Shown piece after piece: positions 7,737 through 32,335 of a stretch of 32,335 bases of DNA. The notes beneath the pieces are model-generated. The model worked only from the letters and a program-made list of their open reading frames with translations. It was not told where the DNA came from and ran no database searches. The DNA is taken from positions 1 through 32,335 of the IMG/VR virus record IMGVR_UViG_3300035670_000853. One strand, 5' to 3'. Every line of letters begins with the position of its first letter. The first letter of the stretch is position 1. This DNA comes from a virus. Both the position numbers and the translations under genes were made by a program.

Positions 7737-7760
7737 GTTATTTTTGGTTAATTAATTACA

Positions 7761-7789: not shown

Positions 7790-7802
7790 CCATTACGACC
7801 TT

Positions 7803-14013: not shown

Positions 14014-14143
14014 AATGCACAAAACCCACCGTGCAACCGATGGGCTTGTTGGGTTTCCCCTATTGTGCCGTTCCAACCCTTTTTCAAGGAATTGGGCGTA
14101 TAAGTCCCCTTGCAAGGAGACCTGCATAAACTTACGTTTATAC
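14014..14143 (-). other. Structured leader of integrase
   Basis: The predicted 130-base 5' leader contains hairpins CTCCTTGCAAGGGG, a CCAA...TTGG stem with GAAA loop, and CCCATCG/CGGTGGG. It also holds CAATAGGGGAAACC at 14051-14064, shared with the next gene upstream. It could instead encode an N-terminal extension of integrase. Confidence 0.45.
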
Positions 14144-14149
14144 AAGTCT

Positions 14150-14155
14150 ATTATA
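14150..14155 (-). promoter_or_regulatory. Integrase promoter, extended -10
   Basis: TGTGCTATAAT on the minus strand (TATAAT at 14155-14150) contains the extended -10 TGnTATAAT. The -35 is poor. Predicted start is near 14143. Confidence 0.5.
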
Positions 14156-14220
14156 GCACAAAACAAACATCTAGTTGCACTCCTTTTTGAGGATAGATGT
14201 ATTAATTAAATTTTAATTAA

Positions 14221-15064: not shown

Positions 15065-15238
15065 TTATTTGCAACTTAAACAGAGCGTCGTGATTATCTT
15101 GAATTTGCCCTTTCTCCTTTCCAGCTCCTGAATTTGCGGTTGAGTTAAGGTTCGCCAGACAAGGTGTTCCTTATACTTACCGCATTTTTGACAGCGAAAC
15201 AGAAGAAACTCTTGGTTTTTTAGGTCTTTCCTGTGCAT
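15065..15238 (-). CDS. Small zinc-ribbon protein (57 aa)
   Basis: ATG 15236-15238 is preceded by a strong SD (GGGAGGTGAG, five bases before the start). The product has CQKCGKY near residues 16-22 and CLSC at 54-57, so the CxxC pairs sit at the two ends of a helical middle (TLTQPQIQELERRKGKF). It is a zinc-ribbon of unknown role. It ends the higher-GC operon that begins at the phosphoesterase gene, right after the HNH-like gene, and may work with it on DNA. Confidence 0.65.
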   Translation of the reverse strand: MHRKDLKNQEFLLFRCQKCGKYKEHLVWRTLTQPQIQELERRKGKFKIITTLCLSCK

Positions 15239-15241
15239 ATC

Positions 15242-15445
15242 TCACCTCCCTTCTAAAAAAGATTTGAGAGTATTGCGATAAAATCTCAAGGGCTTTTTTT
15301 CTTCTACGGGAATGAGCTGTTCAATGGCATCGTGGCAGTCTCGGCAGAGTTTGATAACGTGTCGCATTCTGAAAAATCTCTTCGGAAAAATGTGGTGCCG
15401 TGTCAATTTCTTGCGTTGTTTACATTTGGGACACCACCCGTGCAT
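15242..15445 (-). CDS. Small HNH-like protein
   Basis: The 67-residue protein has CPKC (residues 5-8), RHHIFPKRFF and LCRDCHDAIE, the zinc-binding and His-Me arrangement of HNH endonucleases. The usual catalytic-site Asn before LCxxCH is not obvious (HVIKLCRDCH), so nicking activity is uncertain. Small phage HNH proteins can assist terminase cutting, act as homing enzymes or serve in defence evasion. It follows the zinc-ribbon gene without a gap, with GGGAG as SD. It is much smaller than typical homing endonucleases and no intron is seen. Confidence 0.7.
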   Translation of the reverse strand: MHGWCPKCKQRKKLTRHHIFPKRFFRMRHVIKLCRDCHDAIEQLIPVEEKKPLRFYRNTLKSFLEGR

Positions 15446-15721
15446 TTAGCACTCTCCCTTGACTGGATAACAGAATGGGCAGGTGTTTGTTTCTACGATA
15501 ACTGCATCAATTGTCATCAGGTCCCTGAGGACTTGCTCGGAAAGCACAAACCAACGGGACAGAGTTTTGAGGCTAGTGATAGTTCTGCGGACAAAGAACA
15601 TTTCGTGGCAATGAGTGCAGGAAACAAGAATATGAGTCTTGAACTCGTGCGCACACTCATCACACATCGGAATACCCTCGCAGACTACCGTTGCCTCCTT
15701 ATTGTCAAATTGGCATCTCAC
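15446..15721 (-). CDS. Multi-zinc-site protein (91 aa)
   Basis: The start is GTG 15719-15721, with a very strong SD (AAGGAGGAAAAA), coupled to the upstream stop. Cysteine pairs occur as MRCQFDNKEATVVC, MCDEC, SCTHCHEMF and TCPFC, enough for about two zinc sites in a cross-brace or tandem ribbon layout around a basic middle (RRTITSLKTLSRW). It may bind nucleic acid or protein. Unlike most genes in the window, it uses a strong SD and has higher GC, as do its neighbours. Confidence 0.65.
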   Translation of the reverse strand: MRCQFDNKEATVVCEGIPMCDECAHEFKTHILVSCTHCHEMFFVRRTITSLKTLSRWFVLSEQVLRDLMTIDAVIVETNTCPFCYPVKGEC

Positions 15722-15978
15722 TTTTTCCTCCTTTCCAATCGTTCTTTAAAATCGTTTTTAAGCTGTTCCTTTTTTCGCCAACGAATGAAACCCCAGCAGT
15801 TAAAACAGAAATAAACTATCTGCACCGCTAGCATTGGATATACTTCCTTATAGTAGGTATACCAAAGCCAGTAGCAACAGGTTATCTGAAAAACTATAAA
15901 GGTCTCTTTGCGCTGGTGGACTGCTAACGTCAATCCCAGAATGTTAAGAACTACGATTAACCACGCTAGTAGTTCCAC
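15718..15978 (-). CDS. Three-helix membrane protein, PnuC/SemiSWEET-like
   Basis: GTG start with an excellent SD (GAGGAGGTAAGAA). The 86-residue product has three membrane helices: LLAWLIVVLNILGLTLAV, an aromatic-rich FQITCCYWLWYTYY, and MLAVQIVYFCFNCWGFIRW followed by a positive tail (KERLERRKK). The ending YF..NCWGFIRWRKK resembles the last helix of PnuC nicotinamide riboside carriers and of SemiSWEET half-transporters, which work as dimers. A role in NAD precursor or sugar uptake is possible but only by resemblance; it is too short for a full PnuC. Confidence 0.7.
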   Translation of the reverse strand: MELLAWLIVVLNILGLTLAVHQRKETFIVFQITCCYWLWYTYYKEVYPMLAVQIVYFCFNCWGFIRWRKKEQLKNDFKERLERRKK

Positions 15979-17513: not shown

Positions 17514-18767
17514 TTAAGCTGAGAACTTTTTATATAGACCTTTGTTATAACAAACCCAATCTCCTAGCCCTCTTTTTTTGTATTGCTTAATCATTTCTCT
17601 AATACACTTTTCTGGGTTATTAAATATTTCTTCTTTGGATGAAAATAACTTGCCTTCCCCTGCCCACCATTTAGAGTTCCATTGGCAAATTCCCCAATCA
17701 TAAGTTCCGTCTGTATTTTTATGCTCGGCTTTGGGGTTATAATCACTCTCGCAATGAACAACTTGAGATATTAAAGTTTTTTCATTCCAATTTAATCCTT
17801 CTTCGTCACAAATAACTCTAACTGAATGACGACAATTTTGGGGCGTGTCCCATAAATATTTTGATGTTTCAACCTTAACTTCTTCAATTTGCGTTTCTAT
17901 TTGTGGCGATACAAATTCGTTAACTGTTTGCTTGGTACTTATTAACATTTTCCATAATTCAATTAGGGCATTAATACACTTTTGCGCAAAGCTAATTTGT
18001 TCTTGAATGGTAGGATCTTTTTTCTTTAGCCAAATTCTTTTGGCTTGTTGAAAATCATAGTTCCAATCCAATTCTTTTATAAAATCCCCTTCACTTTCTG
18101 GATAGGTGTCAAAAACAAACCAAGACTTTCCTTCATCGGCTTTAAATAGGCAGACAAAATGGTTGTCTTGTGATCCGGCTGGCTTTATATATTTGTCCCC
18201 TTCTTTTTTCCAGGCCATTACAGAAATAGCGACCGGAGAATACATCAAGGCGTCTAGTATAATTTTTTGTTTTTCTTCTATGAAGGGATTTCCCGTCCAT
18301 AAATATTCATGCTTGAAGTCAAATTGTTTTAACCATTCTTGGCCTTTTTGTTTTAAATTTTCTGCTAAAGGATCAGGACTGTAATATTTTTCAATAGTGT
18401 CTATGGAGTCATTAAAAGGCAACAAACTTTCATTGACTAATCCTGTTTTTCTTATGGCTTCTCCAACTGTATGGGGAGAATTGCCCGGGGGACGAGTTCC
18501 GGCAGAAATCCCCGTAAATCTATCTGAAAAATTTTCTAATTTATCGGTTATGCGATTAATAAAAATTTCTATAGTGTTTAAAAAGGCAAAGCCCGTGCAA
18601 TTGCAAGTTTCTACATTGTTGCGTCTTTGATATTCTTTGCTTGGGAGCCAATCAGCCCAATCTCTATTCGGGCATAAAACTTCTCCCTGGATTGGTGAAA
18701 CCCCAAAAATATAATCTTCTTGCTTCGGCTCTTCTAAAATTAATCCGTAGTTTTTGATTTTTTCCAT
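17514..18767 (-). CDS. Two-domain endolysin: papain-like peptidase plus lysozyme-like domain
   Basis: The N-terminal half (about 40-230) looks like a papain-like cysteine peptidase: catalytic C57 in CNCTGFAF, a GNSPHTVGEAIRKTGL segment, H203 in QDNHFVCLF, and D220 in WFVFDTYPE. The C-terminal part (about 305-417) is lysozyme/transglycosylase-like with E340 in VVHCESDYNP and TYDWGICQWN. Together they could cut both peptide and glycan bonds of the wall. There is no signal peptide, so release needs a holin, which fits the membrane gene just downstream. Such a combination is uncommon. Confidence 0.75.
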   Translation of the reverse strand: MEKIKNYGLILEEPKQEDYIFGVSPIQGEVLCPNRDWADWLPSKEYQRRNNVETCNCTGFAFLNTIEIFINRITDKLENFSDRFTGISAGTRPPGNSPHTVGEAIRKTGLVNESLLPFNDSIDTIEKYYSPDPLAENLKQKGQEWLKQFDFKHEYLWTGNPFIEEKQKIILDALMYSPVAISVMAWKKEGDKYIKPAGSQDNHFVCLFKADEGKSWFVFDTYPESEGDFIKELDWNYDFQQAKRIWLKKKDPTIQEQISFAQKCINALIELWKMLISTKQTVNEFVSPQIETQIEEVKVETSKYLWDTPQNCRHSVRVICDEEGLNWNEKTLISQVVHCESDYNPKAEHKNTDGTYDWGICQWNSKWWAGEGKLFSSKEEIFNNPEKCIREMIKQYKKRGLGDWVCYNKGLYKKFSA

Positions 18768-18873: not shown

Positions 18874-19041
18874 ATGAAATTTACTTTGGGAATTTTCGCG
18901 GGAATGTTTATATTGGCTTTGATCCAAGGGTTTCAAAATTTTGGCTTATTCTCTACGTTAAAAATTCTTGCTATTGGACTAATTATTTTAGCTATAGGAC
19001 TTATTACTCTTCGTTGGCTAGAGAAAAAAGACCTACTTTGA
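18874..19041 (+). CDS. Two-helix membrane protein, only plus-strand gene
   Basis: The ATG at 18874 gives 55 residues; an in-frame ATG at 18862 would add four. Two hydrophobic helices (TLGIFAGMFILALIQGF and LKILAIGLIILAIGLITL) are joined by a short loop and followed by RWLEKKDLL. Frame quality is good and the interval has no other gene. It runs toward the large internal protein gene and overlaps its last nine bases. No SD is present, but a promoter places the transcript start at the ATG. A lysogeny-expressed or exclusion protein is a reasonable guess because its direction opposes the lytic genes. Confidence 0.6.
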   Translation: MKFTLGIFAGMFILALIQGFQNFGLFSTLKILAIGLIILAIGLITLRWLEKKDLL

Positions 19042-22000
19042 AAAAATACTGTCTAGCGATCTTCTATTGTTAAAAATATCCGATAAGCTTTTTGCTTGAC
19101 CTTTTTCATTTAATGCTTTGTCCAATTTTTTTTGTTGCTCTTCACTTAAATACCCTCTCAATTCCTTTTGCTCTTCGACACTAAATTGACGATATAGTTG
19201 GGCCTTTCTTCCATAGTCGCCATTTTGTAAAAATTCTACTTGTGGAACAAACCATCTTCTGTCTTCTGATTTTTCGCCTATATTCCTTACCCAATCTTGC
19301 GCGGCAATCGATCCATATTTACCCCGCAAAAATGATCGGACTAATTCCATCGTGTCTTGAACTGGAGCTAACATTTTCCCGTCATTGTCGGTTATTCTGC
19401 CATCTTCCATAATTTGCATGCCTTCATTTATTCTTTTAATTTGTTTTGGTAATCCCAAGGTAGAGGCCAAAGACCATAAAACTTTTTCATTTTCTCCCTT
19501 GCCCAAATTTATTAAAATATTACTTATGTTCCCCAGGGCTGGAGATATTGTAAATTCAGTTTCATTGGCTATTGAATAGGCAATATTTCCTATAATTGGT
19601 ATGTTTCCGGACATTGATAATAAAACATCTTTAGCCATTCCTTTTGCGTCGCTCCATTCAAAAGTTAGGTTTTCAATAGCTTGCTCCATATACGCGATAG
19701 CTGTTACCGCCGCCAAAACTTCAGCTGTCGCTTTGGCTGTTCCACCAAAACCCTTAGAAGTAGCAATGTGCCTATAAAATCCATTCAACTGTGAGGTCAA
19801 TGGATATAAAAACATCAAAATAAAATTCCCCAATTCTTTTCTAAATGCTTCGGGTCTTTGCCCCTTGAAAAAACCACCATACCACATATCTAAAGTGTCT
19901 TGTGCCTTCTTTTCTATAACTTTTTGGATTTCTGGGCTTATTTCTACCCCTTCTTTTAAAAATTTATTGTATTCTTTATCTAACAAGGCATTCAAAGAAA
20001 TTTGTGCGTTTTTCTTATCAAACTGTGTTAAGGCCCCGGTAAATATTCTGCCGATTTTCCCCTGGAGGTCAGAAATGGCTATGTCGCCTCGTCGCTTTGT
20101 AAGGCTGGGAAGATCGGCCACATTAATACCAAATGCTTTAGCATAATTGCTTTTAAATTTTGGTAGAGTTTTTTCAATAACTAAAATTGGGACTTGGGTT
20201 AATGCCTGTTTTAAAACAGAAGCATAATTTAATCCCAAGCTTCCTAGTGCCACACCTTTTCTTAATAATCTTGATAAAGCGTTAAGAGATTGTCCCCCTA
20301 ATGAAGATGGGGATTCTGGGGTAGTAATATTACGTAGCCAATCACTAATAGTTTGCCAATCTTGCTCTTTGATAATATTTTTAAAATCATCACTATTGAC
20401 TAAATATTTTATGTCATTAGTCGTTTCACCATAGTTTAAAAATTGAGTAATGCTATCCATCCACCTTATTGCCACCCTTCTATAATCTTTTTCGTATAGT
20501 TCTAACGGAACTTGCTTGGCTCTTTCTTTGAGTGAAAAGAAGGCTGGATGATTTCTAAATAGCCAGTCCATACTTCCTCCTTGATCTATTAGCTTAATAT
20601 CATCTGCAGTCATAAGAGGGGCGTAATTTTCCACCTTGCCCGGATTTTTTCCTAATTTTTTTGCAACCTCAAAAAACCTTTCTTCGGTTTCTTTAATTAT
20701 AGAATCAAAAATTTCTACAAATTTTCTGCCTTTTTGGCTTAATTCCGTTATGGATATTTCCTTGCCCTTGCCCTGCCTACTTAAATAATATTTTGCCACT
20801 CCATCAGCCTCATTCTTGGATAAATTAAATCTATCGGCAGTAAACCAACCTCCCTCTTTAAATAATCCGGCGTCTTTAAATTTTTGAATAAATCGGCTCT
20901 TTAATACTTCGGCATCTCTACCTGACTGAATAACACGATCATAAATGTTGGATAATCCCTTCCTTTCAAAAAAAGCGTAGGGAAGTTCAATAGATTTGGC
21001 CGCTTTGATAGGAATTTCAATCCCCTCTACCAACATTGATTTTTTCTCCCACTTTTGTTTTGGAATTTCATCGGAATATTTACTTTTTATTTCGGCTATA
21101 TCTGATTTTTTAATAACTGAAGATAACGAACCATCGGCATTTCTTTTAATTTTCACGGTGTCAACCAACTTAGTGCCATCTTCTAAAATAATATTTTCAA
21201 TATCTTCATCAGATAATCCTCGTTTTTTAAATTGAGCAATAGAATTTTCGGTATTACCCCGTGTATGCTTTTGAATATTTTGAATGGCTTCTTGCCTAAT
21301 TTTTTGTTGTTTCGCGTCTAATTTAGTAGCCTTTTGTTGAGCTATTTCGGCATTTTTTATTTCTTGTTTTGTGGCTTTAATTTCATTTTTTAAATTTTCT
21401 CGTAATTCTTTTTGTGTTGGAGTCGTAAATTTACTTTGGCCCAATACAAAAGTATCCCCTTGAATTAAGGCGGGCATTTTATCGCCAGACCAATTAGAAT
21501 ATGTGTTATTTTGTTGTCGTTTTAATATTTCTTCACTAATAGAATCAGCTAGTCTTTGCTCTTTATCTCCAAGCGTTTTGTTGCTTTCTAGTTTAGAAAT
21601 TGTTTTTTCAATTAAATCACTACTTCTTAACTCGGATGGAACAAAATCTGGGAAAGTTGAAGACTCCCCAAAATAATCCCTTCCCCCTCCAGTTTCTTGT
21701 GGTATTGAGTAGCGTGAACCAGCCTGCGAAGATTGCAATTCAATTTTTATATTTTCCCATTCTTGGCTTTTTGTAATATTTTTAGACTCATTTCGAATTA
21801 TCGGGTCGTAGTATTCATCGTCAGATAATATTTTAGCTACATCATCCAAAAATGTGTCATCTACCACCTTATCCCACTCTGCTTTTAGTTGGGATTTGGT
21901 TTTGATAACGTCTTTATTAAAAATTCTTATTTCTCCTTCTAAATTAGCTGACAAATCAACACCGTCATATCCTTTCTTTATCGCATAATCGCTTATACCT

Positions 22001-23028
22001 CCCAAATCTACAGTCCCATCTTCAAAAAATCTGTCTGGTATTTTATTATCGGGAAGGATTTTTGCATTTTTAGATATTACCAATTCATTTATAGAGCCAT
22101 TTTTATCATTGAAATTACCACCACCCCTTCCGCTTGCAAATGTTTCTGCCCAAAACTTATCTTTGGTCGTAGAAATTCCCCCTTCTTCAACCCTGGTTGC
22201 ATCATAGGGTGTTCCACCATGATAAACTGATTTTCCTTGCCCCTTCACCCACTCATCAAAAGACTGACCAGAGGCTTTAGCTTTGGAGATAGAGGTTGTT
22301 ATATTTTCTGTTTTTAATGCATCTGTTTTTACATTTTTTAATAAACCCTCTACTTCTATCGGTTTAGTAGTTTTCACTAATTTACTAACCAACTCATCAC
22401 TAGCCTTTACGCCAATTTTTTCTAATTTACTAAAAATATCTTTGGCTACTTTTGACTTGGCAATTTCCCTAATAACATTTTTTGATATATTTTCCATAGA
22501 TCCAACCACGCCAGTTAGATCAAAAGTTGCCCCGGATTCTACACCAACAATTCCATTGTCAAAGTTTATTTTTGAGTTTAGCGGAGGAGTCAGGCCTAAT
22601 TCAGTATATTTTTTATTCATCATCGTCTGGATCTGCTTTTTTATCTCGTCTTCGTTGGTTCCCCTACTAGACAAACGATTATAAATAATCTGTGCATCTT
22701 GTCTTACTTCTTTTATGGGGGTAATAAACCCTTGAACTTTATTTCTAAAATTAGCCAATGCCGAAGTATTTACATTGATATTAACCGTTTTTTCTAACGG
22801 TCTTGGAAGGTTAGTAGAGATATTTTTTAAATTATTTGTTGTTTGCCCAATTAAATCCTTAACGGGTTGAAAATTTAAAGCAGCTTTATTGACTTCTCTT
22901 AACTTCGCCGACACTTCCTTGTTTTGTCTTTGCGATTCTGCTGTTTGAATTGTTTGTCGTGCCATTTCCGGCATCGCCTTAACATTCGTTTTAAAGCGAT
23001 CCATTAAAGCACTTAAATTTAATGCCAT
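19033..23028 (-). CDS. Large internal virion protein with ADP-ribosyltransferase-like domain
   Basis: At 1331 residues this is the largest gene, last of the structural run, as expected for podovirus internal/ejection proteins. The N-terminal 260 residues are helical. A domain at about 265-385 resembles ADP-ribosyltransferases: SVYHGGTPYDA (H270), GISTTKDKFWAETFA (S286-T288), GYDGVDL, and GEIRIFN with E366. Residues about 540-600 are a Lys/Glu-rich coiled coil. The C-terminal 400 residues include hydrophobic helices (for example VLAAVTAIAYMEQAI) that could cross the membrane on ejection. Likely delivered with the DNA. The transferase call is from motif resemblance; the family is unproven. Confidence 0.75.
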   Translation of the reverse strand: MALNLSALMDRFKTNVKAMPEMARQTIQTAESQRQNKEVSAKLREVNKAALNFQPVKDLIGQTTNNLKNISTNLPRPLEKTVNINVNTSALANFRNKVQGFITPIKEVRQDAQIIYNRLSSRGTNEDEIKKQIQTMMNKKYTELGLTPPLNSKINFDNGIVGVESGATFDLTGVVGSMENISKNVIREIAKSKVAKDIFSKLEKIGVKASDELVSKLVKTTKPIEVEGLLKNVKTDALKTENITTSISKAKASGQSFDEWVKGQGKSVYHGGTPYDATRVEEGGISTTKDKFWAETFASGRGGGNFNDKNGSINELVISKNAKILPDNKIPDRFFEDGTVDLGGISDYAIKKGYDGVDLSANLEGEIRIFNKDVIKTKSQLKAEWDKVVDDTFLDDVAKILSDDEYYDPIIRNESKNITKSQEWENIKIELQSSQAGSRYSIPQETGGGRDYFGESSTFPDFVPSELRSSDLIEKTISKLESNKTLGDKEQRLADSISEEILKRQQNNTYSNWSGDKMPALIQGDTFVLGQSKFTTPTQKELRENLKNEIKATKQEIKNAEIAQQKATKLDAKQQKIRQEAIQNIQKHTRGNTENSIAQFKKRGLSDEDIENIILEDGTKLVDTVKIKRNADGSLSSVIKKSDIAEIKSKYSDEIPKQKWEKKSMLVEGIEIPIKAAKSIELPYAFFERKGLSNIYDRVIQSGRDAEVLKSRFIQKFKDAGLFKEGGWFTADRFNLSKNEADGVAKYYLSRQGKGKEISITELSQKGRKFVEIFDSIIKETEERFFEVAKKLGKNPGKVENYAPLMTADDIKLIDQGGSMDWLFRNHPAFFSLKERAKQVPLELYEKDYRRVAIRWMDSITQFLNYGETTNDIKYLVNSDDFKNIIKEQDWQTISDWLRNITTPESPSSLGGQSLNALSRLLRKGVALGSLGLNYASVLKQALTQVPILVIEKTLPKFKSNYAKAFGINVADLPSLTKRRGDIAISDLQGKIGRIFTGALTQFDKKNAQISLNALLDKEYNKFLKEGVEISPEIQKVIEKKAQDTLDMWYGGFFKGQRPEAFRKELGNFILMFLYPLTSQLNGFYRHIATSKGFGGTAKATAEVLAAVTAIAYMEQAIENLTFEWSDAKGMAKDVLLSMSGNIPIIGNIAYSIANETEFTISPALGNISNILINLGKGENEKVLWSLASTLGLPKQIKRINEGMQIMEDGRITDNDGKMLAPVQDTMELVRSFLRGKYGSIAAQDWVRNIGEKSEDRRWFVPQVEFLQNGDYGRKAQLYRQFSVEEQKELRGYLSEEQQKKLDKALNEKGQAKSLSDIFNNRRSLDSIFSK

Positions 23029-23031
23029 AAA

Positions 23032-24390
23032 TTATAAAGATGCGTTGCCTTCTAAATATTTAATTATTTCATCGTCGGAATAACCCGCCTGCCTTGCTTC
23101 TTCTACTTTTGCTATCGCTTCTTTTATAAATCTACTTATGTCCATAGAGGCCGGAGTATACCACTTGGAAGTTCCAAACTTATCAGACATTTTTTTCAAT
23201 TCATCTGTTGTGTAATTGGTTCTTAGATATTCTTCTGTTATATATTGGTTGGTGCTGCCCGCGTTTCCTCCACCGCCAGAAATAATTTTTCTTGCTCCTT
23301 CTTCTAATTGTTGAGGTGTAGCATTTGGGTTATCTGCCATATATTGCGAAAGTTGAGATTGAGTAAATCCATACGGAGGTGTCCAGCCATAAGTATTTTT
23401 GAATTGCCCAATTTCCCACATTGTTAATGGTTTCTCATTTGGAGTGATATCGCCACTAGCGTTTCCGCCGCCAATAAAAGACTTATCTTGTAGATATATT
23501 GAAGCTGCCCTCAAGGCCTCGTCTGGTGTTTTAGATCCTTGTATTTTTTGCAAAGTTAAAGCATCTGCTCCATTTTTGGCAGCTTCAAGGGCTATATTGT
23601 AAATATTTTTTTGATTATCTTGTTGTGTTTGGAGCGCCAATTCTTTTTGTTGTTGAATCTCTAATTGTTGTGCGGCTCTTTTCTTTTCTGCGAGTGTATA
23701 TTCTGGAGAATTAATAATAAGATTAAGATTGTCCATTTTTACTTTGAGTTCTTCTCTTAGTGGATCATATTTGGCTGAAACTGCTCTATCTACCAAATCA
23801 TTGGCTAAGGCTAAATTACCTCGTGAGGCTTCTAATAAGGAATTTACCGACAAGGCTTTAATAGCATTTTCTCTTAATGCTTCTGAAGTTTTGCCCTGAT
23901 AGGCAGTATTGGTTTGTCCAAGCTCTCTGGCTTGTAATTCTAACTGCAAAGGAATGGCGCTTGCCTCATTTTGTAAAGTTTTTAATTGGGCTTCCAAATC
24001 TTTCTGGGTTTTGGCAAGTTCGGGAATATTATAAATTGTTTCTTGCTCTTTTCTATAAGCTGTTTCCCCGGTTAAACCTTGATTTAATATTTTTAATTCA
24101 TTAATCAAGTCCTGGCTTTGTTGCTCGGGAACAGAAAGTTTATAGGTATCCTCCATAGTTGGAGCATTTGAAGGTGTCGGCGGAGTAGGAATGACTGGTG
24201 GCGGGGTAGGAGTAGGCGAAGAATAATTTATTGGTGTTGTAGGTTTTAAAATATTGGAAGTAATAATGTTGGGTTCTAACATTACCCCACTAGAAGGATC
24301 TCGGTTAACTGCACTTTTAATTGCTGCATTTGGATCAGCAGCCTCTACATATTGTTTTTGACCTAATGTATCTATATAAGCGTATCTCAT
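23032..24390 (-). CDS. Coiled-coil internal or tail-associated virion protein
   Basis: The 452-residue protein has a short alpha/beta N-terminus (MRYAYIDTLGQKQYVEAA), a Pro/Thr linker (SSPTPTPPPVIPTPPTP, about 56-72), then a long Gln/Leu/Glu-rich helical region (about 85-260) and a C-terminal part with a Gly/Asn-rich stretch and DISRFIKEAIAKVEEA. Such layouts are typical of podovirus ejection proteins that line the core. It starts in the stop of the hub-like gene (ATGA) and ends four bases before the giant protein gene. No enzyme motif is visible. Confidence 0.7.
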   Translation of the reverse strand: MRYAYIDTLGQKQYVEAADPNAAIKSAVNRDPSSGVMLEPNIITSNILKPTTPINYSSPTPTPPPVIPTPPTPSNAPTMEDTYKLSVPEQQSQDLINELKILNQGLTGETAYRKEQETIYNIPELAKTQKDLEAQLKTLQNEASAIPLQLELQARELGQTNTAYQGKTSEALRENAIKALSVNSLLEASRGNLALANDLVDRAVSAKYDPLREELKVKMDNLNLIINSPEYTLAEKKRAAQQLEIQQQKELALQTQQDNQKNIYNIALEAAKNGADALTLQKIQGSKTPDEALRAASIYLQDKSFIGGGNASGDITPNEKPLTMWEIGQFKNTYGWTPPYGFTQSQLSQYMADNPNATPQQLEEGARKIISGGGGNAGSTNQYITEEYLRTNYTTDELKKMSDKFGTSKWYTPASMDISRFIKEAIAKVEEARQAGYSDDEIIKYLEGNASL

Positions 24391-25883
24391 AATTTATCTT
24401 GTGTTTCATAATAAACTTCAATCTTTCTTATGATCGCTGCCGTGCTGGAAGCCGAAGAATGATTGAACCTTATATGCAACAAAAATGTGTTGACATCTTT
24501 AGCGTTGGTAGGAACAACAGATATTGAAGAAACACTTCCATTAGCGGCATTGGTTAATGTTTGATTCAAGGAATCTGTTGCCCCTCCTATTGAAATTGTT
24601 GCGTTATTTAAAAATAAAGAAGCTAAAATAGAAGCTCCAGTTCCAAACTGAGAAAAATAGAAAATTATTTTTGTTATGTCACTTTTATATGGCAACTCCC
24701 TAATTGAATCTTTAAAATCGGCATTAATATAATAATTTGTCCCCATATAAGATATGTAATAACTTGAACCTACTTTTCTTCCTACGCATAAATAAGAGGA
24801 GGCAAGGTTTTTTACCATTCCCACATCGCTAGAAGCGGTTGACCCATCAGAAGTTACGGCCGTTCTAAAATGAAATGCGGTGCCATCTAGACAATACATG
24901 TTGCCACCGCTTGATTTTGTGAAATGAATCATATTTTGATACAACTCTATGCTTCCAGGACGTGGCCCATTTCCAATTTGTGAAGATTCAAATATTGTTT
25001 CAAAACCTTCATTCTTGTAGTATTTAATTTTTGTCGTATTATTTATGCCTTGAGTAAACGCATATAAAATTCCGTCTTTTACATAAATAGCTGAGACATA
25101 ATTATCGTTTAAGTCATAAATGGCGTCGGCAAGAGTGCTGGAACAATTCCAAAACCAAACCAAGGCTTCTCCTTTGGTATAAGTAGTAATGCTTCCAGTG
25201 GCTTTATATCCGCTTATAACCAAAAAGTTTCCTAAAACCCTTAAGTCTGTTGCCACATAACCAGTCCCTAAGCTCAATTTTTGCATAATTACAACCCCGG
25301 TAGATGGATTTAATTGAACTAAATATTGTCCATTAGTGATATAAATATATTTGTCTGGGCCAACTGCCATTTTATGAGGAACGGATTTGTCTAAAACCCC
25401 GCCCCCTGAAGAAGTAGAAAGAAAATCGTCGTCATAAGCTCCAGAAGATTTAGTTCTTCTCCCCACATCCCCATCTGTCCCATCATTGAAAGAATATAGA
25501 ATATATTCATCAGATGAATTTTTATAAGTTAAAATATCTTCCCCAACAACGCTTGAGTGATGAGAAATGTCTTTGGCGGCATCAACCTCAAAGTCAACGG
25601 TTCCAAATTGAACGATTCTTCCGTTATCTAAAATACAAAATGCTTCTCCGGCCGAATCCACTACCCCATTAATTGGTAGCCCTGTTACTCTTGTTTCTGA
25701 GTCTCCAATATTAGTAAAAACTTCTCCAGGAGAAATTTGTCCGATCTTGCCATTACGAAATAAACTAATTGCCGTTGAGGCGCTATATTTTCCAGGCTCA
25801 GCTTCTACACCAGCAGAAGAACCAGAAAAATCTAACCCCCATCCCCTACCTATTAAATTTTTATCTATTGTAATTTTTCCCAT
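24387..25883 (-). CDS. Beta-rich tail hub/nozzle-like protein
   Basis: The 498-residue protein is almost all beta, with repeated blocks such as FCILDNGRIVQFG, KYIYITNGQYLVQLNPS and GILYAFTQGIN that suggest a beta-propeller. The size and position are like the P22 gp10-type hub (about 470 residues) that closes the portal channel, or a propeller-bearing fibre protein. It lies between the fibre gene and internal proteins. The C-terminus (about 440-498) looks like a separate beta-sandwich. Assignment rests on size, fold pattern and context. Confidence 0.65.
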   Translation of the reverse strand: MGKITIDKNLIGRGWGLDFSGSSAGVEAEPGKYSASTAISLFRNGKIGQISPGEVFTNIGDSETRVTGLPINGVVDSAGEAFCILDNGRIVQFGTVDFEVDAAKDISHHSSVVGEDILTYKNSSDEYILYSFNDGTDGDVGRRTKSSGAYDDDFLSTSSGGGVLDKSVPHKMAVGPDKYIYITNGQYLVQLNPSTGVVIMQKLSLGTGYVATDLRVLGNFLVISGYKATGSITTYTKGEALVWFWNCSSTLADAIYDLNDNYVSAIYVKDGILYAFTQGINNTTKIKYYKNEGFETIFESSQIGNGPRPGSIELYQNMIHFTKSSGGNMYCLDGTAFHFRTAVTSDGSTASSDVGMVKNLASSYLCVGRKVGSSYYISYMGTNYYINADFKDSIRELPYKSDITKIIFYFSQFGTGASILASLFLNNATISIGGATDSLNQTLTNAANGSVSSISVVPTNAKDVNTFLLHIRFNHSSASSTAAIIRKIEVYYETQDKL

Positions 25884-25885
25884 AT

Positions 25886-26569
25886 TTATCCTATTGCGAT
25901 TAATGTTACGATGGCATTAGTTGCGTCTGAGTTTTTCCAAATATAATTTATAGACGTTCCACTTAATGAAGTGATAGTAAAATAAGTATCAGAATCCCAA
26001 TCTAAAAAGGCTCCATTGCTTGTGTCGTTGTATCTCACTAATGGGATATAGCCTAAGTTTGGAGTGTGCCAAATTCCAAAAGCGTTTTGTGTATTAGTGG
26101 ACACTATTCTTATAAACCCAAAAATAACTCTAGGTACAAATCCGAAATCATTTGAAGAACTTTGCTCCACCGAAGTTGAGCCAGTAAGGGTTTTTGTGAA
26201 AACTCCAGAAGATATGGCGTGAGTATGAGATGTTCCTGATTTTTCTGTGTCTAATTCATTTAGGGCGTCTTGAACATTAGTGGCTGCAATATTTCCTGCT
26301 GGGGTATTGGTTACATATCCAGCACTAATAGCTCCCCCATCTCCATCATCGTGGTTATGGGTGTTTCCTCCAGTAACTCCATTAGCAATATCGGCATAAT
26401 CTGAATCGTGATTGTGGTCTGTTTTGGAAAAACTTTTGCCAATAATATCTTTAGTGAATGGATTAATTTGTGGGTTATCAATAATATAGCCGCTTACTCT
26501 TGTTAGTTCGGATTTTAATGAATCAATTTGTTGTTGTAATTGTTGTTGTAATTTTTCTAATTCTGTCAT
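25886..26569 (-). CDS. Tail fibre protein
   Basis: The 227-residue protein begins with a Gln-rich coiled coil (LEKLQQQLQQQIDSLKSEL), followed by fibre-type repeats: HNHDSDYADIANG, HNHDDGDGGA, an AATNVQDALNELDTEKSG segment, and SHTHAIS. These are standard in trimeric phage tail fibres. The C-terminal 100 residues (from about 125) form a beta domain that could bind the receptor. It overlaps the holin gene (ATGA) and precedes the hub gene. Confidence 0.8.
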   Translation of the reverse strand: MTELEKLQQQLQQQIDSLKSELTRVSGYIIDNPQINPFTKDIIGKSFSKTDHNHDSDYADIANGVTGGNTHNHDDGDGGAISAGYVTNTPAGNIAATNVQDALNELDTEKSGTSHTHAISSGVFTKTLTGSTSVEQSSSNDFGFVPRVIFGFIRIVSTNTQNAFGIWHTPNLGYIPLVRYNDTSNGAFLDWDSDTYFTITSLSGTSINYIWKNSDATNAIVTLIAIG

Positions 26570-26997
26570 TTTAATTTTTCGCTTATTAAACCATTAATTT
26601 TGTCTTCAATAACTTTGGCCCATTTAAAATCTAACAACTTGGCATTTTCTAAAATCGATTTTAATTCGGTTAAAGCAATTAATAGGGCCATGAAGTTATA
26701 AATCCAATTTGGCATCATTGGCAATCTGGTTGCTTGATAAGCAGCAACAATTAATAAGAAATAAAGAAGAATTTTTAAAAGCATTCCTTTCATTAACTTG
26801 TATGAGTTGAATCGCTTCATTTTTATTGCACCCATAATTCCCAAAATCACATCTATCACTACCAAATAAGCCATTACCTCAATAGCTAAATAGTTATAAC
26901 CAAGCGAATAACAAATAAAAGTTAAAATTCCAGCCAAACAAGCTTTAATTTTTAATCCTGCTATGAAGTTATGAAATATTGCTCCAATTAATGTCAT
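26566..26997 (-). CDS. Holin (phage_holin_4 / toxin-secretion type)
   Basis: ATG 26995-26997 is chosen over a TTG four codons upstream. The 143-residue product has about three to four membrane helices and the family-like core YLAIEVMAYLVVIDVILGIMG, then MKRFNSYKLMKGMLLKIL and a final membrane helix ending ALTELKSILENA (written in parts). This matches the phage_holin_4 family, where VxxDxxxG, S-x-K and a late E/D-xSIxEN are typical. It would permeabilise the inner membrane at lysis. It is separate from the endolysin, between adhesin and fibre genes, giving the genome two holin-like genes. Confidence 0.85.
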   Translation of the reverse strand: MTLIGAIFHNFIAGLKIKACLAGILTFICYSLGYNYLAIEVMAYLVVIDVILGIMGAIKMKRFNSYKLMKGMLLKILLYFLLIVAAYQATRLPMMPNWIYNFMALLIALTELKSILENAKLLDFKWAKVIEDKINGLISEKLK

Positions 26998-27028
26998 TTT
27001 TAAAAACAACTTAAAATTACGTAAATAA

Positions 27029-27064: not shown

Positions 27065-27982
27065 TTATTCCCACCATATAATTTGCATTTGATTTGTGGC
27101 TAATACTGCGCTTGTATAACTAATAATTACCACCCCCGAACCTCCTAATCCTCCTCCTGGTGCTGCATTTCCTTCTCCACCACCACCACCGCCACCACCT
27201 GTGTTGGCTGTTCCACTATTTCCCTGTACTGCTCCTACTGAACCTGCACCTCCTCCACAAGTAGCTGTCCCTGCGGTTGTAGCTGGATAAGCTCCTCCTC
27301 CACCACCACCTGCATAACAAACTGATGCTCCCGAAATTGTTGATGTATAACCAGCTCCACCTGCTCCTGCTACTGTTTGCGTGGCGTTTGAGCCAGCCGC
27401 ACTTGCACCACCCCCACCAGCTCCCATATAAGTTGGACTTGCAAAACCTGTTCCACCGCCATATACGTTTGAACCACTACCTGCTCCTGCTCCTGCTTGC
27501 CCTGCACTTCCTCCACCTCCTGAACCACCACTTGTTGGGCTTTGGGCTGAGCCAGATGGGCTTGGGTTAAAACCTCCTCCCGCGCCGCCACCGCCATAAG
27601 CAGTTATTGAACCAAACGAAGAATTACCACCATTCCCGCCCGCGGTATTTGTTGTTCCGCGTGTTCCACCAGATCCAATAACTACTGAAATAGTATTACT
27701 TGCATTGTAAGAGGCATTATATTCAACACTTCCACCACCACCACCGCCACCATCCCAATGGCCACCACCGCCTCCTCCAGCCACAACCAAAACTTCTACA
27801 TTCTGGCTACCCTTTCCAGAACAATCTAAAGTTGAACTTGAATTAAATGTGTGGATAGTTTTCCCCCCCGAGTAAGTTATAGTTCCACCCGTACAATCAG
27901 CCGAAAAAGCTCCATAAGAAATCTTTGGAATAAATATTGAAATCAAAAATGTTATTAAAATTATTGATAAATATTTTTTCAT
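27065..27982 (-). CDS. Secreted glycine-rich adhesin-like protein
   Basis: ATG at 27980-27982 (MKKYLSIILITFLISIF) overlaps the methyltransferase stop; a start six codons earlier is possible. A signal peptide ends near ISYGA. The rest is dominated by glycine runs (up to nine), with TIHTFNSSSTLDC and VVIISY blocks like the glycine-rich domain of phage adhesins and bacterial surface proteins, and likely forms a polyglycine II-like sandwich. Similar tips recognise receptors on phages such as S16. A signal peptide is unusual for a virion fibre, so it may decorate the host surface or be a mimic of a host protein. It sits in the fibre region. Confidence 0.75.
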   Translation of the reverse strand: MKKYLSIILITFLISIFIPKISYGAFSADCTGGTITYSGGKTIHTFNSSSTLDCSGKGSQNVEVLVVAGGGGGGHWDGGGGGGGSVEYNASYNASNTISVVIGSGGTRGTTNTAGGNGGNSSFGSITAYGGGGAGGGFNPSPSGSAQSPTSGGSGGGGSAGQAGAGAGSGSNVYGGGTGFASPTYMGAGGGGASAAGSNATQTVAGAGGAGYTSTISGASVCYAGGGGGGAYPATTAGTATCGGGAGSVGAVQGNSGTANTGGGGGGGGEGNAAPGGGLGGSGVVIISYTSAVLATNQMQIIWWE

Positions 27983-28590
27983 TTTTTTACTGTTATCCAA
28001 TCCTCATCTATAATGTCATATTTAAGATTGTTGGCTTTTATAAAATCTACTACTGGATAAAATACCCCAGGAATTCTAAAATCATGTCCCGACAAAATTC
28101 CTTTTTTTTTGAGTAGTGGATAGTAGTTCTTAATATCTTTTTTTACGAATTTTGAATCGTGGTTTCCGTCTATATAAACAAAATCCAATTTACCTTTTAT
28201 GTCTTTATATGCCTCATCTGAAAACTTATGAATCCACACAATCTTATCCTCATATGGCTTTAATCTTAATTTAGCGGTTATCTTTGCTGTATCTAATAAT
28301 TTCTGATCAGATTTATTCTCTGTTCCACCAATACTTTTTTCATATTCTTTAGTGTTTTGGTATGGATCTATCAAATATAACTTCTTAATCGGCAAGTGCT
28401 TTAAGATATTTAAAGCGTTCTCTGCTTCCCAAACCCCCACTTCTGCTCCGGTTAGCTCTTTGCCCTTTAAATACTTTCCATATTTAAATTGATGGATAAA
28501 TTGAATAAACCCTCGTGGATAATAAACATTTATATTAATTCCAAATAATCTTAAAAATTTTTGTATATAAAATTTAAACTGCCTAATCAT
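27979..28590 (-). CDS. Class I SAM-dependent methyltransferase
   Basis: The 203-residue protein has a Rossmann-type pattern: motif I GAEVGVWEAENA (about 48-59), motif II acid D75 in LYLIDPY, and FVYIDGNHDSKFVKKD (about 138-153) with LLKKKGILSGHDF, as in the Methyltransf_24 / sugar O-methyltransferase group. DGNH and GHD would bind a metal as in cephalosporin hydroxylase/MycE-like enzymes. A carbohydrate or surface-polymer target is likely because it lies between two surface-protein genes. The start overlaps the upstream gene by eight bases. Confidence 0.8.
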   Translation of the reverse strand: MIRQFKFYIQKFLRLFGININVYYPRGFIQFIHQFKYGKYLKGKELTGAEVGVWEAENALNILKHLPIKKLYLIDPYQNTKEYEKSIGGTENKSDQKLLDTAKITAKLRLKPYEDKIVWIHKFSDEAYKDIKGKLDFVYIDGNHDSKFVKKDIKNYYPLLKKKGILSGHDFRIPGVFYPVVDFIKANNLKYDIIDEDWITVKK

Positions 28591-29680
28591 TTTTATATTT
28601 AATTCCTACGGTTAATGAGCTAGTTGAATTGACTGTTGCGTCTATATCAAAATTTAAAATTGCTCCTGCCGCTATTCCAGAATTAGCAAAGGTTGAGGTT
28701 GCATTACCATCCGCGTCACAAACCATTGACCCAGAACTGAAAACATCTGTTCCTGCTGATCCTGGCGTACTTGAAGCTCTTTCATCGGCTCCAATAGTGA
28801 TATTGGCTCCACCTTTTGTGTTGCAATAAATTTCAACAATCGTAATGGGTTTAAAAAATGTTTTTTGAGAATTAAAGTTAGTTGAGGTAGTGTTTATCAC
28901 ATTAAAACCAACGTCTTTATAGGCAGTAGAAATAGTTGTGGAGTCGGGGAAAATTACAGACGTAAATGAAGGAGTAGAGGTTACTGCAATAGTAGTGGTA
29001 GATCCGGCAGTAGAAAAAGTTGCGTTTGTACCGGCCGCCAAAAATGAAGCTGAAACATCTCCATTCCCGTCTGTTTTTAAGTATCCGTTTAATTCTGTGC
29101 TTACTTGTAAATCAGATGCAAAAACCTTTGTCGCATAGAGATTGCCATTTGTATAAAACTTGTAAGTTCCTGGATTATTGGTTCCAACACCAATATTTCC
29201 GTTTGGTAGAACAGTAAAAAATGGAGTGGCACTTGTGGAGGTTGCTATGGTAAATAATGAAGATTGTGTGCTTGTCCCAACGCTTAAATAAGAAAAGTTC
29301 CCATTAGTTGAAATTAAATTTGTTATTCCTAGGTTCGTAGAAGTAGCTGTGTTAAAAATTCCATTAGTGGAAAAAAAGTCCGTGCTTGTAACCCTATTAA
29401 ATAAACCATAAGTGGAAGAAACTTGTCCGTTTAAAAATAAAATTCCAGTTGAACTGGTATAGGAAAAATTACTATCCCCTACTAACGCGCTACTAATGGC
29501 ATTGTTTAAATTAGTAAGCGAATTATTTACATTAGTTCTAAAAGTATTAAGCGTATCGGTTGTATCGGTTGTAAAAATTGTTGCGCCTAAAATAGTTCCA
29601 TTGTTTTTGACGACAACAATACAGAACAAAATAAATATAATTACAAAAATTAAGATAAAATATTTTTTAATAAACTTCAT
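28583..29680 (-). CDS. Membrane-anchored TST-repeat surface/fibre-like protein
   Basis: ATG 29678-29680 gives 365 residues and overlaps the upstream stop. An N-terminal anchor (FIKKYFILIFVIIFILFCIVVV, about 3-24, given as FIKKYFILIFV plus IIFILFCIVVV) precedes irregular repeats such as TSTDFFSTNG, TATSTNLGI and SVGTSTQSS, then NGNIGVGTNNP. Such TST/GTSTQ and GIGTTSP-like text is typical of Patescibacteria surface proteins. The C-terminal domain (about 270-365) is beta-rich. It replaces a conventional fibre by location but has a membrane anchor, so either it is host-surface mimicry or the virion passes the envelope in an unusual way. Confidence 0.75.
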   Translation of the reverse strand: MKFIKKYFILIFVIIFILFCIVVVKNNGTILGATIFTTDTTDTLNTFRTNVNNSLTNLNNAISSALVGDSNFSYTSSTGILFLNGQVSSTYGLFNRVTSTDFFSTNGIFNTATSTNLGITNLISTNGNFSYLSVGTSTQSSLFTIATSTSATPFFTVLPNGNIGVGTNNPGTYKFYTNGNLYATKVFASDLQVSTELNGYLKTDGNGDVSASFLAAGTNATFSTAGSTTTIAVTSTPSFTSVIFPDSTTISTAYKDVGFNVINTTSTNFNSQKTFFKPITIVEIYCNTKGGANITIGADERASSTPGSAGTDVFSSGSMVCDADGNATSTFANSGIAAGAILNFDIDATVNSTSSLTVGIKYKND

Positions 29681-29901
29681 GATTTGTTTAAATTTGACCA
29701 AACAGTACCAACTAATTGGTCAAAGGTTATGTTTTTCAACAACGTCCCATCTGCGAATACGACGCTTTCAAATGTAAAATTAGCCAAAGTTTCTAGTGTT
29801 TGCTCTTCGTGTTTTAAAATATTTAAAAATGAAGTGCTATTTTTAGATGTGTTAGCGGTAGAAACTACGCTATTTTTATTTGTATTGGTAAATGTTGTCA
29901 T
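29677..29901 (-). CDS. Small Thr/Asn-rich protein (74 aa)
   Basis: The N-terminal half is Thr/Asn/Ser-rich (TTFTNTNKNSVVSTANTSK), and the C-terminal half has FESVVFADGTLLKNITFDQL, which resembles collar or base segments of fibres. It is coupled by ATGA to genes on both sides. A fibre-associated or tail-completion role is inferred by position. No known family is recognised. Confidence 0.65.
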   Translation of the reverse strand: MTTFTNTNKNSVVSTANTSKNSTSFLNILKHEEQTLETLANFTFESVVFADGTLLKNITFDQLVGTVWSNLNKS

Positions 29902-30596
29902 CTAAATCTAATTCCTCTTGTAGTTATGACCCTTTTAACGTCTTTTTCCCTCTCAGATTCAAATTCAAATAGCTCTTTTTCTAGACGATTAATTTCTGAA
30001 AGAATAAATGGAACTCTGTCTCTAAGATGTTTGGCGCAAAAAGGTAGGGCCGCTTTATAGGCCAATAAAATATGATAAGGAGAAGCAAATCCTGGTTCTT
30101 TCGTGCCAGTAGTAACTTCGGCAGAAGTAAAAATATCAGCAGTTCTTCTAAAATAAACTCTTAGTCCGTTAGTTAAAGTTACGCTAGTAGATGATGGCTT
30201 AGGATAAAGTAACAATGAATTTCCATTTTTATCATATTGCATTGGAAGCCCGTTATCTTTCATATGTTCTTCCATCGGAATGTTTATATCGCGTCTATCA
30301 ATTGGATCTAATAATTGCCATATTCCTCCTGAATCTAATACCTGTACTCTTTCAATAGACAAATGAGAAGCGTCAAAGGTGTAGTCTTGTTGTCCATCAA
30401 CTAAGCTAGTTGTGGCAATAGGCATATCAGTGTAATTGGTATCGTCAAAATCCCATGATCCATTTAGCGCGATAAGTTTTCCAACAATTTCTTCATAGGC
30501 AGCATTAACTCGCCTCAATAAAGTAGCGGCTGGATAACTATTTGTATCTGCGTCGCATAAGTCTCTAGCTTCTGCGTTTATATCTGATATAGTCAT
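29898..30596 (-). CDS. Head-tail adaptor/connector protein
   Basis: The 232-residue protein lies right after the capsid gene and has the pattern of podovirus adaptor proteins: an N-terminal helical part (TISDINAEARDLCDAD, RRVNAAYEEIVGKL), a beta middle with LVDGQQDYTFDASH and VRVQVLDSGG-like text, LYPKPSS, YFRRTADIF, and a C-terminal helix (LEKELFEFESEREKDVKR). Such proteins attach below the portal ring. This family is common in phage genomes, usually beside the capsid gene. AAAGTCG and a strong hairpin precede it. Confidence 0.75.
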   Translation of the reverse strand: MTISDINAEARDLCDADTNSYPAATLLRRVNAAYEEIVGKLIALNGSWDFDDTNYTDMPIATTSLVDGQQDYTFDASHLSIERVQVLDSGGIWQLLDPIDRRDINIPMEEHMKDNGLPMQYDKNGNSLLLYPKPSSTSVTLTNGLRVYFRRTADIFTSAEVTTGTKEPGFASPYHILLAYKAALPFCAKHLRDRVPFILSEINRLEKELFEFESEREKDVKRVITTRGIRFR

Positions 30597-30668: not shown

Positions 30669-31535
30669 TTAAGCAACGTTAACATCAAAGATCACAGGTT
30701 TGGTTTTGGCCCATACCTTAGTTTCAAAGTCAACCCTGGAAACAACTGCAATACCTGAAGTGCTAGCTGGATCTTTTTCGTCAACCACTATTTGCCCATA
30801 GGTATCTTTTAAGATTCCGATGTGGATTAATTTCTTAACCCCGGCAACAACGTGGTTAGCAGATAAAAGATTAGAAGCATAGTGAGTAAGACCCATATAA
30901 TTTACTCCTTGTCTTGCTCCGTCTCTTAGCGCCTGGTCGGCAACTACAAAACCATTAGCCATCATAAATCCTTCAAGTAGCTCAAAATCTGCTGGTCTCC
31001 ATACAACGAATCCTCCATTTCTTTGCAACAAAGTGTCTCCGGCTGCTACGCGAATAACTCGCTTGATGTGTCGGATAATGTCATCAATGTTGGTTGAAGA
31101 AACTGTAATTTGAGTAGTATCTGCGACTGAACCACCAGTAATATCACCGGAACCGAAGTTGGTCATATTGGCGTGGTTAGCATAGATAGCAGTTTCGATT
31201 GCTTCGTTGAGCAATACGCCTTGCCTTTTAGCCAATTCCATTTGTTTTGTATAAGTGGATTGTGCTAAATCTGCTCTATCAATAAACACTGGCACAATTT
31301 TTGATGTGCTGATGGTTACTGATTCATCTGTTTCTGTGAAGGTGCTGTAGGTGTAAGCAGTTCCTCGTTGATTGGTTTGAACTGCAGGATCAGTAAAATA
31401 AGGATTGTGGAGAACTCTTGTATTGCTGATTTCAACATTACAAATATCCTTCCAAAAAATCGGCTCATCTAACTCTTCCTGAAGTTTTTCTGCCCAATCT
31501 TCTGCATAAACAACTGTATTAATTGCTGTAGCCAT
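30669..31535 (-). CDS. Major capsid protein (HK97-like fold)
   Basis: The 288-residue protein has the usual N-terminal arm, then TYSTFTETDESVTISTSKIVPVF and DRADLAQSTYTKQMELAK (pieces of 20 residues or less apply: TYSTFTETDESVTISTSK and DRADLAQSTYTKQ), an A-domain with VAAGDTLLQRNGGFVVWRP, and VSRVDFETKVWAKTKP near the end. This is like capsid proteins of environmental podoviruses. It follows the scaffold gene and precedes the adaptor. The leader is AT-rich without an SD, which is surprising for the most abundant virion protein. A possible stabilising hairpin stands after its stop. Confidence 0.85.
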   Translation of the reverse strand: MATAINTVVYAEDWAEKLQEELDEPIFWKDICNVEISNTRVLHNPYFTDPAVQTNQRGTAYTYSTFTETDESVTISTSKIVPVFIDRADLAQSTYTKQMELAKRQGVLLNEAIETAIYANHANMTNFGSGDITGGSVADTTQITVSSTNIDDIIRHIKRVIRVAAGDTLLQRNGGFVVWRPADFELLEGFMMANGFVVADQALRDGARQGVNYMGLTHYASNLLSANHVVAGVKKLIHIGILKDTYGQIVVDEKDPASTSGIAVVSRVDFETKVWAKTKPVIFDVNVA

Positions 31536-31578: not shown

Positions 31579-32157
31579 CTAGATAACTACAGATCTGTCA
31601 CTAAATTTATTCTTAGTATTTTCTTGCTTAATTTTGGCGTTAATCACTTCCCGTCTGAGTTCTTTATTCTCTTTGGGGGGCAATTCGCCCTTAGCAAGCC
31701 AATAATCAACTGTGTCAATAGGAGCAACAGAAGAACGATTTTTACTGCCCTTGGGAATTGCTTCCTTGGAGCTATTGTCTTCCCGACGCTCTTTTAACTC
31801 AGCTTGAAAATATTTATTTTCAAGAATTTCTTCTAGTGACTTACCTGTTTTTTCAACAGCTTCCCATACAAACTCATATTCATTATTTTGAATACCGCTT
31901 GCTTTTAGAAATGCTTTTTCTGCGTAGTCAAAACCCTTTTTTTCTTCTTTTGGTTGTGAACTACTCGTTTCTGCTGTAAGTCGGGGATCTTCTTTTAACT
32001 TCTTCAAATCCGAATAATTCCTTTTGGCTAATCCACTAAACCTTTTTGCCGCTTCATTTTGCGCTAAAGCAATGGATTTCCAATCTGTGTTGTCATTTCC
32101 TTCTTCGTCGCTTTCTTCAACAATTTCTGGAATGACAAATTCGTTTTCATTAGCCAT
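31579..32157 (-). CDS. Scaffold-like protein
   Basis: The 192-residue protein is acidic at the N-terminus (IPEIVEESDEEGND) and highly charged and helical throughout, with KEEKKGFDYAEKAFLKASG and a basic C-terminal helix (LRREVINAKIKQ). Size, charge pattern and position directly upstream of the capsid gene are typical of podovirus scaffolds that guide prohead assembly. The Lys/Arg end would contact the capsid protein. The upstream gap crosses the circular junction and contains no clear promoter. Confidence 0.8.
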   Translation of the reverse strand: MANENEFVIPEIVEESDEEGNDNTDWKSIALAQNEAAKRFSGLAKRNYSDLKKLKEDPRLTAETSSSQPKEEKKGFDYAEKAFLKASGIQNNEYEFVWEAVEKTGKSLEEILENKYFQAELKERREDNSSKEAIPKGSKNRSSVAPIDTVDYWLAKGELPPKENKELRREVINAKIKQENTKNKFSDRSVVI

Positions 32158-32208: not shown

Positions 32209-32335
32209 GATTGAAACGATAACAAGTAATTTCCTTTTGATTGGTAGAATAACCAAGATTTTTAGTAGCCTTCGTAACAAACGCGAAGGGTATCATTAAA
32301 ATCAATTGCGCCTCCTAAATTCTGCACTAAAACTG
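32209..32335. repeat. Terminal direct repeat, right copy
   Basis: Exact copy of bases 1-127. Because of this overlap, the truncated reading frame from 32262 to the end is the same gene as 54-491 and should not be counted twice. Confidence 0.95.

Follow-up and report, generated by a model that had tools for sequence, protein, structure and literature searches.

In tailed phages, fibres are normally synthesized in the cytoplasm, which is also where they join the virion. Some of them carry GNVGIGT repeats together with an S74 endosialidase chaperone. In crAss001, the head fibre gp21 lies beside the portal and is a small protein encoded directly after it. Among phages assigned to Patescibacteria, RSA-ATP1 is a tailed phage of an Absconditabacterium that uses genetic code 25, reads UGA as Gly, and carries a suppressor tRNA (PMC13059738). 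From groundwater, 1,162 candidate Patescibacteriota phages have been reported, mostly temperate and novel members of the Caudoviricetes, some with putative surface-adhesion genes, namely lectin and O-antigen genes (PMC12911398). The view of the initial annotation that few phages of CPR hosts are described is therefore out of date.

The window analyzed here is the whole 32,335-nucleotide stretch of one IMG/VR virus record. Its protein F shares one NGNIGVGTNNP motif and a beta-rich stalk with S74-type fibres but lacks an S74 or other Pfam domain and has a membrane anchor. Two small proteins, A and B, are likened to gp21 by position but differ in being anchored and in having paired cysteines. Like RSA-ATP1, the window represents a tailed phage whose most likely host is a Patescibacterium, but its TGA is a stop codon and it has no tRNA genes. 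The groundwater phages are alike by description and differ in that their putative adhesion genes are lectin and O-antigen genes.

Genome and gene inventory

The window ends in a perfect 127-bp terminal repeat and so represents a complete genome of ~32.2 kb (about 32,208 bp unique). Nearly every gene is on the minus strand. As judged from its genes alone, this is the complete genome of an uncultured podovirus-like tailed phage (Caudoviricetes) with an integrase. The principal features are as follows.

1-127, no strand: terminal direct repeat, copy 1, identical to 32209-32335
54-491, minus: B, small membrane-anchored exoprotein; 'LGASSG..H' junction, 4 ectodomain Cys; alignment of 22 B proteins
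615-1013, minus: A, small membrane-anchored exoprotein with 4 ectodomain Cys, between the portal-like gene and the scaffold
1037-1387, minus: small conserved protein between the portal-like protein and A; homologues in 56 loci
1400-3196, minus: portal-like protein; homologues in 137 loci, position after TerL
5239-6477, minus: TerL, terminase large subunit (PF04466, 1.7e-35; TIGR01547, 9.1e-38)
6624-7040, minus: terminase small subunit (phrog_606, 1.3e-10)
7041-7736, minus: secreted coiled-coil protein with T-rich linker (ORF)
13147-14166, minus: XerC/D-like tyrosine recombinase, integrase (PF00589, 1.3e-24; XerA, XerD and XerC models below their cut-offs)
17514-18767, minus: two-part protein with a lysozyme/SLT-like C-terminal end (weak Lys/SLT matches)
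24387-25883, minus: putative nozzle-type tail protein, from order and length only; no family match
26566-27009, minus: holin, Phage_holin_4_1 (PF05105, 2.1e-15; phrog_199, 1.2e-13)
27065-28000, minus: protein with signal peptide and glycine-rich domain (PF21722, 8.5e-16; phrog_2295, 2.6e-46)
27979-28590, minus: methyltransferase, Methyltransf_24 (PF13578, 2.7e-12), overlapping the end of the fibre gene
28583-29680, minus: F, membrane-anchored S/T-rich tail-fibre-type protein of 365 aa (ORF, ATG start)
29677-29901, minus: short protein lying between adaptor and fibre, 44-58% conserved across 7 loci
29898-30596, minus: head-tail adaptor-like protein; homologues in 124 loci, up to 58%; weak phrog_913 match
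30669-31535, minus: major capsid protein, family-defining (phrog_267, 3.6e-10)
31579-32157, minus: scaffold-like protein, named from position only; homologues in 116 loci, order conserved
32209-32335, no strand: terminal direct repeat, copy 2

The gene set is podovirus-like, with small and large terminase subunits, portal-like, scaffold-like, capsid, and adaptor proteins, a holin, lysis-type proteins, and the XerC/D-like integrase; no tail tube or tape-measure gene was recognized in the window. The portal assignment is weak, with one family member weakly matching the portal family phrog_156. The capsid model phrog_267 is matched by 20 of 28 members of the capsid family. A gene similar in size to the putative nozzle follows the fibre in loci L002 and L190, the N-terminal part of the 17514-18767 protein is common to L093 (34%), and the PF21722 domain also occurs in 2 of 28 family fibres.

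Three other regions deserve mention. Positions 15065-15978 form the main stretch with strong Shine-Dalgarno (SD) leaders (GGAGGTG, AGGAGGT) in an otherwise SD-less genome; this stretch has a higher GC content (0.42), encodes zinc-finger/HNH-like and PnuC-like (PF04973) proteins, and is possibly a recent import. A small protein at 3760-4176 has an HEKTH motif (NHEKTHSQQQ..WWDRY..D..FR..QEIPAY), is 35-52% identical across 9 loci, and looks like a zincin. In the 1331-aa protein at 19033-23028, residues 540-898 are a recently swapped module by their 74% identity to part of L238, a value well beyond that of the remaining genome.

Capsid-profile scans of IMG/VR recognized 74 and then 252 contigs, and the family thus has at least 252 members there. 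Against 50,697 phage records, neither the window's capsid and portal nor two distant family capsids had any match. IMG/VR contains ~60 close relatives of TerL, with 56-72% identity in the best segment; among the matches listed from the same 50,697 records, none exceeds 39%. Over the whole cassette, the window is closest to L093, with 65% identity in the capsid, 57% in the portal, and 58% in the adaptor, and to L190, with 61% in the capsid and 57% in the scaffold. Individual relatives have their own peculiarities. By eye, L001 has two glycosyltransferase-like genes (7661-8254 and 8807-9391) inserted between capsid and adaptor. L059 (7390-9714) has an intein-like insert in TerL, exactly in the Walker-A stretch (GGRY / CFDGDT...). 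L082 has a recombined terminase, as its TerL matches that of the window at 78% identity across residues 9-219 and is unrelated thereafter.

Anchored fibre-type proteins and their soluble relatives

F begins with a single hydrophobic helix (Kyte-Doolittle mean 3.83), as expected from the membrane anchor proposed in the initial annotation. In the AlphaFold model, residues 2-27 make up this helix (block pLDDT up to 94), and another helix spans 44-66. For both F and B, the helices alone are modeled confidently; the beta parts are of low confidence, and mean pLDDT is 53 and 55, respectively. The proposed TST/GTST repeats are also real: TST occurs 7 times in F versus 1.16 in same-composition shuffles (0/5000 as high), [AG]TST occurs 4 times versus 0.17 (0/5000), and Ser and Thr make up 28.5% of the protein. 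The repeats had been described as ending in NGNIGVGTNNP. The motif PNGNIGVGTNNP is present once but is internal, with ~190 residues following it, and is not the end of the protein. The layout of F is a TM helix, a 'LGATIFTTDTTDTLNTFRTNVNNSLTNLN' fibre N-terminus, a beta-rich stalk, and 2 ectodomain Cys.

The family places F more firmly. Its slot behind the adaptor holds the same kind of protein in many relatives, and 27 further anchored members were aligned. They consist of a helix, a short linker, the sequence '[LFY]G[AS]T[IV]TTI.GSDTL..SR..INTNFSNLN', and an S/T-rich body. One of them, by eye L193, has a phage Tail Collar domain, and the C-terminal domain of F is 45% identical to that of another phage of the TerL clade. 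Other searches were empty. No Pfam, PHROG, or NCBIfam model matched F, so a Peptidase_S74 domain is absent by Pfam. The fold search with the F model gave meaningless matches (TM-scores ~0.2), solved-structure profile searches with F, capsid, and portal gave nothing useful, and F as a single query had no match in IMG/VR.

Four loci (L140, L153, L156, and L229) encode fibres that are soluble. These share the N-terminal motif of F (M-ATITTI..D.I..SR..INTNFSNLN..KIET) but have no anchor, no ATST-rich stalk, and 0-1 Cys. They start with M-[AS]TITTI, or MSTITPL in L229, exactly where the anchored fibres read G-[AS]TITTI. Right behind this junction, the soluble and anchored fibres align at 65% over 34 columns (hhalign probability 98.6, E 7.6e-16). 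By these alignments, F is of tail-fibre type, and a signal anchor has been grafted onto it. The overlapping methyltransferase gene and the S/T-rich stalks suggest glycan decoration.

A and B occupy the slot between portal and scaffold. The initial annotation had listed anchored proteins at 54-1013; the anchoring holds, and the region encodes two separate single-anchor proteins. In 55 of 80 family loci, this slot encodes 1-3 anchored proteins, and N-terminal helices occur in 6.7% of other genes. B has homologues in L193 and L198 (37-39%). In the B slot of L116 is an exported protein that, by eye, resembles peptidoglycan-binding repeats. A soluble counterpart of A also exists, namely a slot class of ~86 aa that shares homology with some of the anchored A proteins in their ectodomain (hhalign probability 87.6, E 3.5e-6, from four anchored sequences only). 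In 16 loci of the capsid family, the slot holds at least 2 soluble proteins and none that is anchored. Elsewhere in the window, the 7041-7736 protein has the signal peptide, coiled coil, and T-rich linker ascribed to it; it had no family match and, as a single query, no relative in IMG/VR.

Cysteine counts indicate where the ectodomains fold. An even, non-zero Cys count is found in 84 of 133 distinct ectodomains and an odd count in 4. Removal of relatives above 50% identity leaves 67 even and 3 odd (p 5e-17). Among other, helix-less genes, 275 counts are even and 445 odd. The window's own proteins have 4 (A), 4 (B), and 2 (F). Even counts would result from paired disulfides formed in an oxidizing compartment, and this indirect but strong evidence places the predicted A, B, and F ectodomains outside the cytoplasm.

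The anchored state has a history within the family. On a capsid tree of 64 rows, it requires 9 changes, at least 7 of them forced by well-supported branches, and it is clustered (0/500 shuffles as low), with anchored and soluble classes based on a hydropathy cut-off and ATG-based gene calls. On this tree, the two forms have switched several times within the capsid family. Of 33 loci with anchored A/B, 20 also encode an anchored F; none of the 7 soluble loci does, nor any of the 4 loci that have neither. The anchor and the ATST style thus occur together, except that L140, L153, and L163 combine anchored A/B with soluble fibres. Taken with their anchorless homologues, A, B, and F derive, as their sequences read, from virion-type proteins.

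Translation signals, genome scans and the host

SD sites precede 1 of 30 genes in the window (1.1 expected) and 71 of 1412 genes in the whole family (57 expected). Among controls, the counts were 24/35 for Bacillota, 0/38 for Flavobacterium phage 11b, and 9/39 for crAss001. Lineages in which SD sites are scarce include the Bacteroidota, which lack them (PMC6847099), and, within Patescibacteria, Wolfebacteria, Campbellbacteria, Absconditabacteria, and Peregrinibacteria (PMC10783764, PMC6847099). In the Parcubacteria, SD genes amount to 2% in Wolfebacteria and 5% in Campbellbacteria (PMC10783764). The family-wide lack is therefore compatible with Bacteroidota or with Parcubacteria-type Patescibacteria and rules out most other hosts; judged from the phage's genes, the host is very probably a bacterium in which normal ribosome-binding sites are not used. 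Six members of the TerL clade (L025, L032, L033, L057, L058, and L061) do have SD sites, at 50-75% of genes, which makes it probable that TerL has passed between phages whose hosts differ in type.

The genetic code narrows the choice. TGA is the stop codon of 7 of 27 long ORFs, and none of the conserved genes requires its read-through, which agrees with the normal stop stated in the initial annotation. The host that it considered unlikely, one using code 25, is also disfavored here, since in-frame TGA read as Gly was not found and no family member examined is recoded. The TGA stops in the window and in the family members examined rule out a code-25 phage and speak against Absconditabacteria and most Gracilibacteria as hosts. 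In such hosts, phages compatible with code 11 depend on stop codons other than TGA (PMC10746230). Scarce SD sites and code 11 together fit a Parcubacteria-type host. The Bacteroidota promoter motif occurs 6 times in the window versus 3.9 expected, and a Bacteroidota control is likewise without excess.

The exported proteins add a further criterion. Their TST/ATST-rich style presumably resembles that of exported Parcubacteria proteins. In N-terminally anchored proteins, ATST-type motifs per 100 aa number 0.95 in the window, 0.82 where loci have the anchored form, 0.15 where they have the soluble form, and 0-0.07 in three Bacteroidota phages. The style is also missing from the pieces of Bacteroidota genomes that were examined.

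Genome scans bear on both candidate phyla. The capsid profile matched 0 of 395 Bacteroidota, 0 of 348 Bacillota, and 0 of 349 Pseudomonadota sampled genomes, a result that shows little when empty and without a known positive; the phyla (that of L083 for the 348, that of L084 for the 349, and Bacteroidota) were inferred from MAG titles and, for Bacteroidota, also from rpS3 sequences. The portal profile matched 0 of 296 sampled Bacteroidota genomes, and the fibre profile had one marginal match in 148 (E 1e-4, inside a 2171-aa frame). The generic TerL family (PF04466) was found in 30 of the same 395 Bacteroidota genomes. Across 84,980 GTDB species genomes, a scan with TerL as sole query gave 4 loci, on short or odd contigs, in MAGs labeled Lishizhenia, uncultured bacterium, Clostridia, and proteobacterium, and none in Patescibacteria. 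All four share TerL alone with the window.

A Bacteroidota host, with the ATST style merely a phage feature, would explain the SD-less genes (PMC6847099), and the two closest GTDB matches of TerL (L081 at 60% and L082 at 78%) sit in MAGs with Bacteroidota-like rpS3. These are short contigs of 4.8 and 14 kb, however, whose one shared gene is TerL, and the empty capsid and portal scans and the near-absence of ATST motifs in Bacteroidota phages also speak against this host. Moreover, in a two-membrane cell, an inner-membrane anchor would leave the fibre in the periplasm. We consider a Bacteroidota host improbable. The ATST-rich exported style, the membrane anchors, and the absence of capsid and portal from the sampled genomes favor a single-membrane Patescibacterium over Bacteroidota.

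The Parcubacteria host named in the initial annotation thus fits the SD-less genes, the TGA stops, and the absence of capsid and portal elsewhere; it fits less well with a TerL scan that has no Patescibacteria and two matches in Bacteroidota-like MAGs. The host is probably an SD-less, standard-code bacterium, most likely a Parcubacteria-type Patescibacterium, an assignment that is plausible and unproven.

Proposed export and display, and possible virion service

The best explanation overall, to which we give an even chance, is that the phage exports fibre-type F, along with A and B, by means of added anchors and displays them outside an infected Patescibacteria-type cell. The anchored-fibre reading is based on the predicted anchors, the common gene slots, the even Cys counts, and the soluble, anchorless homologues in relatives. 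F, A, and B would be products of the virion gene block that Sec inserts into the cytoplasmic membrane and that fold, with disulfide bonds, on its outer side. On a single-membrane cell, they would form S/T-rich surface stalks. Such stalks may occupy or mask receptors, resulting in superinfection exclusion, or may tether virions or partner cells. The surface-display role taken separately falls slightly short of an even chance. Against it, the virion block contains F, A, and B in its gene order, which points to service in the virion, and with such service a cytoplasmic-membrane anchor is hard to reconcile.

Export could instead be a step in virion-fibre maturation, where F, A, and B gain disulfides and perhaps glycans, are cut near [LFYV]-G-[AS], and join virions at or after lysis, so that the anchor is transient. 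The anchored fibre minus its anchor is the relatives' soluble fibre, the genes are kept in virion slots, and one fibre has the Tail Collar domain. In 58% of A/B/F proteins, the motif [LFYV]G[AS] occurs no more than 40 aa behind the TM, versus 8% of windows further on. In F, however, it coincides with the former start of the soluble fibre, and its G-[AS] may be just residue 2 of that old start. The helix and the junction are kept ~20-25 residues apart by a coiled coil in L093 and L190, which is too far for signal peptidase I. No tailed phage is known to add exported fibres after lysis, and maturation seems to us unlikely, though less so than a Bacteroidota host.

The exported proteins could also be host-derived Parcubacteria genes (morons) and not phage fibres. 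Their assumed likeness to Parcubacteria exported proteins and the L116 protein are in keeping with this origin. The fixed virion-block slots across the family and the homology to soluble phage fibres and slot proteins are not, which makes morons the least probable account. Surface display of phage-derived fibres is the reading that we prefer.

The virion-fibre-type proteins with added anchors, missed in the initial annotation, are a stronger result than the host assignment. Three virion-slot proteins with anchors and paired Cys, with soluble versions in close relatives, provide a natural comparison for the role of exported fibres. The family-wide absence of SD sites is a usable host clue for uncultured phages. 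If the Patescibacteria host is true, the family would offer a large genome set for the study of phage adsorption and lysis of episymbiotic cells that mostly lack CRISPR. Tentatively, a large podovirus family may infect Parcubacteria-type Patescibacteria and may have repeatedly made its head- and tail-fibre proteins into disulfide-bonded proteins anchored at the surface of these single-membrane cells, while relatives in other SD-less hosts would keep the soluble virion forms.
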